Part shown: piece after piece, positions 426 to 15,249 of the stretch | Layout: each line of letters begins with the position of its first letter | How positions within the stretch are numbered: the first letter of the stretch is position 1 | NCBI GenBank assembly: GCA_024223125.1 | Contig: JAAEOP010000753.1 | Span: 1-18,727, forward strand | Reading direction: 5' to 3' | DNA length: 18,727 nt | Source: Chloroflexota bacterium | Lineage (GTDB): Bacteria; Chloroflexota; Anaerolineae; Promineifilales; Promineifilaceae | The notes under the pieces: model-generated | Told to the model about the DNA's origin: nothing | Databases searched by the model: none | What the model saw: the letters and a program-made list of their open reading frames with translations, nothing else | Program-made: the position numbers and the translations under genes

Positions 426-435
426 GAAAAAAGTT

Positions 436-528
436 AACCATTCACTCCCCCAAGGTGCCCGGCACTTATAAACGAGTGTGCTACTCCAGTAGACCTGGTA
501 ATGAAGTGCCGGGCACCTGAATGGTTAC
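436..528 (+). mobile_element. 93-bp palindromic MITE-like element, copy A, with 10-bp target duplication
   Basis: The element begins AACCATTCA and ends TGAATGGTTAC, giving inverted ends. Inside lie a second pair of inverted arms, GGTGCCCGGCACTT and AAGTGCCGGGCACC, and a loop of about 36 bases that contains a smaller hairpin (CTACT..AGTAG). It is flanked by identical 10-bp direct repeats GAAAAAAGTT at 426-435 and 529-538, as expected for a target-site duplication. Copy B (15130-15222) is the same length in inverted orientation and differs at about three positions in the loop. It has no coding capacity, so it would have to be moved in trans. The high identity of the two copies and intact duplications suggest recent transposition. 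The family was not recognised; a REP/RAYT-type or DDE-transposase-dependent MITE are both possible, the duplication favouring the latter. Confidence 0.8.
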
Positions 529-562
529 GAAAAAAGTTAAGGGCACACATCGGGCAAACTTT

Positions 563-14763: not shown

Positions 14764-15075
14764 AGGCTTGTGGTAGCATCCGCCGCGTGGAAAATCATCA
14801 TGGACGCCACCGAAACCGCCCGCCAACAAATTCCGCAAGACCAGTTTCTACAAATTCGATATGAAGATTTATGCGCCCAACCGGCTGCCACATTCCAAAC
14901 GGTGTTTGATTTTTGTGACCTGTCTTCCAGGCCGCAATTTGAAGCCATCCTGCCCCATTTCCCCCTTCACAGCAGCAATCAAAAATGGCAACAAGAGCTA
15001 ACCCTATCCCAACAACAGATGCTGAACGAACTTTTGTACACCCACCTAAACCAGTACGGGTATGGTTCAAATTAG
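14764..15075 (+). pseudogene. C-terminal remnant of a sulfotransferase
   Basis: The frame reads AAWKIIMDATETARQQI, then FLQIRYEDLCAQPAATF and QTVFDFCDL. This is the part of PAPS-dependent sulfotransferases (Sulfotransfer_3-like) after the 3'-phosphate-binding region, where RYEDLxxxPxxTxxxxxxFxxL is conserved. A further 40 residues lead to a normal stop at 15073-15075. The N-terminal P-loop-like PAPS-binding segment is absent: a stop codon precedes the fragment at 14758-14760 and the glycosyltransferase promoter lies just left of it. A GTG at 14770 could start an ORF of about 101 residues but has no convincing ribosome binding site. It is therefore a 5'-deleted pseudogene, probably of a surface-glycan sulfation enzyme. 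Confidence 0.7.
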
Positions 15076-15129
15076 CCTCTAACGCCGGGACAACGTTAGC
15101 AAATAGCCTACCAGCAGCAAACATTTTTT

Positions 15130-15222
15130 GTAACCATTCAGGTGCCCGGCACTTCATTGTCAAGTCTACTGGAGTAGCACACTCGTTTATAAGTGCCGGG
15201 CACCTTGGGGGAGTGAATGGTT
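15130..15222 (-). mobile_element. 93-bp palindromic MITE-like element, copy B, with 9-10-bp target duplication
   Basis: Inverted relative to copy A (436-528), the same length, and about 90 of 93 bases identical; the differences are clustered in the loop (AGACTTGACAATG against AGACCTGGTAATG). It is flanked by the direct repeat ACATTTTTT at 15121-15129 and 15223-15231, extendable to 10 bp by a shared G. Read in element orientation, the target is AAAAAATGT here and AAAAAAGTT at copy A, so both insertions chose an A6 tract followed by a G/T-rich triplet. It lies between the sulfotransferase remnant and the methyltransferase, and its right duplication falls where a -35 box of the methyltransferase promoter candidate would lie. 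Confidence 0.8.
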
Positions 15223-15249
15223 ACATTTTTTGTCATTGGAGTGTGATCA

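Follow-up and report, generated by a model that had tools for sequence, protein, structure and literature searches.

Two copies of a short palindromic element stand in the window, by which we mean the whole 18,727-nucleotide stretch of DNA analysed here, and they raise the question of what kind of element this is and by what machinery it spread. An earlier note, made from the sequence alone, took it for a MITE mobilised by a DDE transposase whose gene lies elsewhere in the genome, and this is still the best fit, since related ends are dispersed among other genomes with 8-bp duplications and also flank IS66 (DDE) genes. We consider it likely that the window element is an IS66-type MITE with a nested REP-like hairpin, its ends moved in trans by an IS66-family transposase. 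The parts of this reading differ in strength: there is good support for a DDE MITE, and the assignment to IS66 is supported by sequence comparison with relatives; we infer that an IS66 transposase moved the two window copies and that their hairpin was originally a REP, captured between the ends.

Anatomy and setting of the two copies

The element is 95 bp long and non-coding, and its two copies lie 14.6 kb apart in opposite orientation; the features described for it on first reading are all present when the window sequence is read directly (Table 1). Each copy has nested inverted arms, an outer pair of 10 to 12 bp and an inner pair of 15 bp, together with a flanking direct repeat of its own, so that the inverted ends and second inner arms of the earlier description are confirmed. 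The second copy, said to be inverted and about 97 percent identical with its own direct repeat, is just that: copies A and B agree at 90 of 93 core positions, with all three differences in the hairpin loop, and they differ besides at one terminal base, copy B having G..C at its ends and copy A starting with T in place of G.

Table 1. Positions in the window of copies A and B, their arms and their flanking repeats.
Feature	Sequence	Position	Strand	Remark
Copy A, element		434..528	+	95 bp; core 435-527
Copy A, outer inverted arms		435-444/518-527		10/10 matched
Copy A, left end	TAACCATTCACTCCCCC	435..451	+	agrees at 16/17 with the left end of the L159 IS66 element; an end of the G252 MITE is identical
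Copy A, inner REP-like arm	AGGTGCCCGGCACTT	453..467	+	arms recur in G316; near-identical arms beside the Y1 transposase in L140
Copy A, inner arm pair		453-467/504-518		15/15 matched
Copy A, hairpin loop		468..503	+	36 nt; the 3 core positions that differ in copy B all lie here
Copy A, inner arm	AAGTGCCGGGCACCT	504..518	+	
Copy A, right end	TGAATGGTTAC	518..528	+	
Copy A, left target duplication	GAAAAAAG	426..433	+	8 bp, family register
Copy A, right target duplication	GAAAAAAG	529..536	+	8 bp, family register
Copy A, full direct repeat	GAAAAAAGTTAA	426-437 and 529-540		
Copy B, element, inverted		15130..15224	-	
Copy B, inner arms		15140..15154 and 15191..15205	-	
Copy B, outer arms		15129-15140/15214-15225		12/12 matched
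Copy B, left direct repeat	CATTTTTT	15122..15129	.	within exact 11-bp repeat 15121-15131
Copy B, right flank	ATTTTTTG	15225..15232	.	within exact 11-bp repeat 15223-15233
Copy B, full direct repeat	ACATTTTTTGT	15121-15131 and 15223-15233		

A transposase could not be encoded in 95 bp, and where listed open reading frames overlap the element, they enter from outside or exit from it. The element folds at -27.2 kcal/mol against a shuffled mean of -9.35 (z -8.2; none of 200 shuffles as good). Allowing at most one mismatch, the motif GTGCCSGGCAC occurs six times in the window against 0.54 expected; the outer motif alone, at the same tolerance, is not rare there (four matches, a number reached by 9 of 200 shuffles). 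The open reading frame adjoining copy B, at 14770-15075, matches only the C-terminal part of sulfotransferase domains (profile positions 166-213 of 216) and looks like a truncated gene.

Related ends and target duplications in other genomes

Copy A precedes a predicted sensor kinase gene whose named relatives, among the matches listed in a protein search, belong to Anaerolineae, Chloroflexi and Candidatus Promineifilaceae. A search of 298 genomes of the class for close kinases gave three, at 62, 59 and 58 percent identity, and the first of these, G252, served as the centre for searches of the order (56 genomes) and of the class (396 or 376 genomes, evenly drawn from a larger group); a scan of genome contigs by kinase alignment retained 80 loci, and 10 of the 11 with Chloroflexota titles were used. 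The whole element found no full-length match in the 56 genomes of the order and gave there only arm matches, in G316; in the class it gave weak matches, nearly all to arms, in 6 of 396 genomes. The end-pair pattern TAACCRTTCAN{60,90}TGAAYGGTTA occurs at 11 places in 6 of the 396 class genomes; a slightly more permissive form was found at 27 places in 4 of the 56 order genomes, 21 of them in G318, with one G252 copy counted in both tallies; the reversed control pattern had no match in either the 396 or the 56. One end of a G252 MITE is identical to window positions 435-451.

A pattern of right end plus arm had no match in public genomes or in viral contigs, the latter also giving none with another, stricter pattern, and BLAST returned a single 25-base match (E 4) from plasmids and none from phages. 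Sixteen viral contigs bear one arm; a loose partner arm (at most 3 mismatches, within 80 bases) accompanies it in one of them, L004, which we attribute to chance.

The 21 MITE copies of G318 lie at loci L161, L164, L167, L169-L174 and L198-L209. To the eye their interiors are modular: some have a stretch of about 25 nt in the first hairpin, some in the second and some not at all, as if hairpin loops had been swapped or extended.

Target duplications were scored as 8-bp repeats at 39 copies, 37 in relatives and two in the window, with the element taken to extend one base past the core on each side. Ten copies have exact repeats, five match at 7/8 and 24 score lower, the two G395 copies with T..A ends and no repeats being retained in all duplication counts as misses. 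At least 7/8 is reached by 15 of 39 copies, where 5000 shuffles of the flanks gave 0.38 on average and never more than 4, and without the window copies 14 of 37 reach that level; in a smaller set of 26 copies, the mean is 4.69 of 8 matches versus 2.23 after shuffling. Copies sought in related Chloroflexota were found as related ends, dispersed in relatives from both class and order, and a part of these further copies have the duplications looked for in their flanks. The companion expectation, of empty sites, had no such return: the joined flanks of both copies were compared with seven fetched loci, among which there was no orthologous site.

The duplication of copy A is exact, 8/8, in the family register, and its repeat runs beyond 8 bp because target and element both continue with TTAA. 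Copy B reaches only 5/8 in that register, and a shift of one base makes its repeat exact over 9 to 11 bp. Direct repeats at both borders, proposed in the earlier note, are present in both copies, but the proposed length of 10 bp is not supported for the family, the register common to the relatives giving 8 bp. A preference for A6 tracts, suggested by the two window targets, did not survive: among the 15 duplications at 7/8 or better, an A6 tract occurs only in window copy A (the target of copy B has one too, but copy B falls outside the 15), and the duplications in relatives do not follow the rule. These best 15 targets are 60 percent A+T.

IS66 transposase genes with related ends

The earlier note had proposed to look for a transposase gene bounded by the same ends, and in two genomes of the same order IS66 genes have related ends, on both sides at L155 and on one side at L159. 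A search of nine genomes with the IS66 profile PF03050 found the family in two, G246 and G316, and not in five of the six MITE-bearing genomes among those so searched. In G316 the transposase gene at L155 is flanked by GTAATCGTTCACATCCCCC and GGGGGATGTGAATGATTAC, and its protein, compared with 376 class genomes, led to G316 itself, to G318 (L159, 40 percent identity) and to a broken copy in G303 (L160). At L159 the left end GTAATCATTCACTCCCCC begins 65 bp before the start codon and agrees with window positions 435-451 at 16 of 17 bases; the DNA fetched downstream has no matching end. With scores of 216.2 (L155) and 219 (L159), the two proteins lie above the NCBIfam IS66 cut-off of 180, and G318 holds its IS66 gene together with 21 MITE copies in one genome.

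Such ends are found at only two of the seven distinct IS66 loci examined, the other five (L154, L156, L157, L160 and L177) having no such end pair, with a lone end bearing one mismatch at L177. Searches of G319 and G190 did not find the L159 protein, and among nine other MITE-bearing genomes, for which the queries differed, an IS66 gene with such an end occurs only in G318. G316 has an IS66 element with both ends, yet no matching MITE, and its copy at L155 shows no 8-bp repeat when read by eye.

IS66 ends typically begin GTAA. In the closest described comparison that we can offer, ISDge4, a single-ORF element of the ISBst12 group of the IS66 family, the ends are GTAACTGCTCAGCA and GTGACTACTCAGCA, one starting GTAAC and both containing CTCA, and the target repeat is 8 bp (part of PMC12898284); IS66 members generally give duplications of that length, as a section of PMC3916326 states. 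The window family shares the 8-bp duplication, and ends related to those in the window flank IS66 transposase genes in relatives; unlike ISDge4, the window element has no transposase gene, is 95 bp long and has a different interior. A parallel for the mode of movement is MITEPsy1, an element of 100 nt that probably derives from ISPsy2: both it and the window element are short and non-coding, with inverted ends and a target duplication, and in both trans mobilisation is argued from matching ends (an excerpt of PMC3189936). The window element differs in its IS66-type ends and 8-bp duplication (4 nt in MITEPsy1, in the same excerpt), in the REP-like hairpin that it encloses and in interiors that vary between genomes.

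We suppose, then, that the ends G/T-TAACCATTCA...TGAATGGTTAC would be cut and joined in trans by a single-ORF (ISBst12-like) DDE transposase of the IS66 family, and that a cut at the target, staggered by 8 bp, would yield the direct repeats upon repair. Could the ends belong instead to a MITE of another DDE family and resemble IS66 ends by chance? In most of the MITE-bearing relatives an IS66 transposase with these ends was not detected, and other families would be compatible with the longer repeats of the window copies (9-12 bp) too; against this, the register common to the copies is 8 bp, and the only transposase genes with matching ends are of the IS66 family, the sole DDE family searched for. 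On balance we regard this alternative as unlikely.

The hairpin between the ends

What the MITEs of different genomes have in common is their ends, the interior differing from one genome to another. In nine of ten hand-chosen representatives (one per genome, plus the window) the interior folds with z between -2.1 and -6.3, G395 being the exception at -1.0; 30 random window segments have a mean z of 0.21 and a minimum of -1.89. In the window element the second module, between the ends, is a hairpin of the AGGTGCCNGGCACTT...AAGTGCCNGGCACCT kind, with arms of 15 bp, and hairpins of that type in relatives either lack these ends or bracket a Y1 (RAYT-like) transposase gene. Most likely the hairpin was acquired between the ends and has since travelled with them.

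The evidence on this module comes from several genomes. The arm piece AGTGCCGGGCACCT has 25 occurrences in G316 and one in each of three others among the 56 genomes searched. For 23 of the 25 G316 matches the partner arm lies 5-7 nt away, giving hairpins, and 13 of 25 fall in open reading frames of at least 120 aa, whereas for random positions the number is 468 of 500. Over 78 kb of G316 no arm match lies within 120 bases of an IS66-type end, and no Y1 gene was detected in that genome. At L140 (G034) a Y1 gene stands between hairpins of the form AGGTGCCCGTCACTT-3 nt-AAGTGACGGGCACCT, with arms that agree with those of the window at 14 of 15 positions, the change being matched on both sides; they were found by a pattern allowing one mismatch, in one of eight Y1 loci so searched, and the protein scores 72.4, below the RAYT cut-off of 80. 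A G249 Y1 gene (L183, 1294-1866), one of 20 Y1 loci, is bracketed by hairpins that match arms in two of three G190 MITE interiors. Two interior types, that of the window and that of G190, thus resemble hairpins that bracket Y1 genes, each in another genome.

The comparison within single genomes speaks against capture of a host's own REP. In none of eight MITE-bearing genomes did a MITE interior match a Y1-bracketing hairpin of the same genome, and the window interior had no BLAST match at the Y1 loci of those eight. Within a genome, interiors gave two 15-bp matches in G318 and, besides these, one match that is another MITE copy; in 60 kb of a single G318 contig no hairpin of the G318 type turned up other than inside MITEs, and G318 is for this reason not counted as a case of REP capture. 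A 39-bp match between a G106 MITE interior and a Y1 locus proved to be a second MITE copy beside that gene and was not used.

Three other loci deserve mention in their own right. A diverged copy of the G106 MITE lies at L190:1906-1981, about 80 bp from a Y1 transposase gene. L137 has a Y1 gene with several flanking hairpins, whose CCTCCCGCAGG arms resemble the G252 MITE interior in style. At L130 (G032), positions 1412-1553, inner arms of the window type stand between unrelated ends, CAGGACTTACGCAGTT and AACTGCGTAACTCCTG, and there is a direct repeat of 7 bp, TGAATAA; this is a second and different MITE-like unit with the same type of hairpin.

The likeness to REP/RAYT systems consists in a short palindromic hairpin that is repeated in G316 and of which near-identical forms bracket the Y1 gene at L140. 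Unlike such systems, the window hairpin lies within DDE-type ends with a target duplication, has a loop of 36 nt and lacks the GTAG or CGTC tag that marks the base of REP hairpins (as given in part of PMC3733652); neither tag stands beside the arms in the window or at L140, and the GTAG in the window element is inside its loop. The earlier note had set REPs aside, rightly as regards the ends, but the interior does resemble a REP-type hairpin. Y1 transposases are not known to make target duplications. The whole unit might nonetheless be a REP- or BIME-like repeat moved by a Y1 transposase, its outer arms and direct repeats being incidental, given that elsewhere the inner arms have counterparts in hairpins that stand without the outer ends or on either side of a Y1 gene; we judge this very improbable in view of the direct repeats in both window copies and the 14 further copies at 7/8 or better, the sharing of ends rather than interiors among relatives and the absence of GTAG from the hairpin base. 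REP-type repetition in the window itself is limited to the two copies, both with IS66-type ends. Least credible of all is a conserved regulatory RNA or DNA structure, selected at both loci and immobile, which the strong fold and the position of copy A, 34 bp before the predicted start of the sensor kinase gene (563), might suggest, but the element matches no Rfam family, no promoter- or terminator-like site was found in 300-650 (a scan of the copy A region only), and the copies are oppositely oriented, with unrelated neighbours and with different flanks, each of them duplicated.

For an IS66-type MITE with a nested hairpin we have found no description in the literature searched. Among the texts consulted, as far as their accessible parts go, there was no account of MITEs with IS66 ends or of an IS66 MITE joined with a REP-like hairpin, the main text of a review of prokaryotic MITEs makes no mention of IS66 or RAYT (PMC10969869), and a text search for the arm letters returned only papers unrelated by title. 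Insertions of IS elements into REPs have been reported (part of PMC1525189), which is a different arrangement from that of the window element.

The hairpins enclosed by one end family vary from genome to genome, and a hairpin of the window's type is present also in the L130 unit. It is conceivable, though we would lean against it, that the capture of REP-type hairpins by IS66-type ends is a recurrent event in Anaerolineae. The products would be chimeric mini-elements with two recognition systems, DDE ends on the outside and an HUH (Y1) hairpin within; we give this reading less weight since comparing MITE interiors with the hairpins that bracket Y1 genes in the same genome yielded no match. If it were true, such mini-elements could spread by either machinery, or could seed REPs by cut-and-paste. 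The dispersal of REPs has been described as poorly understood (in a passage of PMC8266576). A REP-like hairpin set between DDE ends with clear duplications makes insertions of the hairpin traceable, and genomes rich in copies, among them G318 with 21, offer a test of its dispersal.
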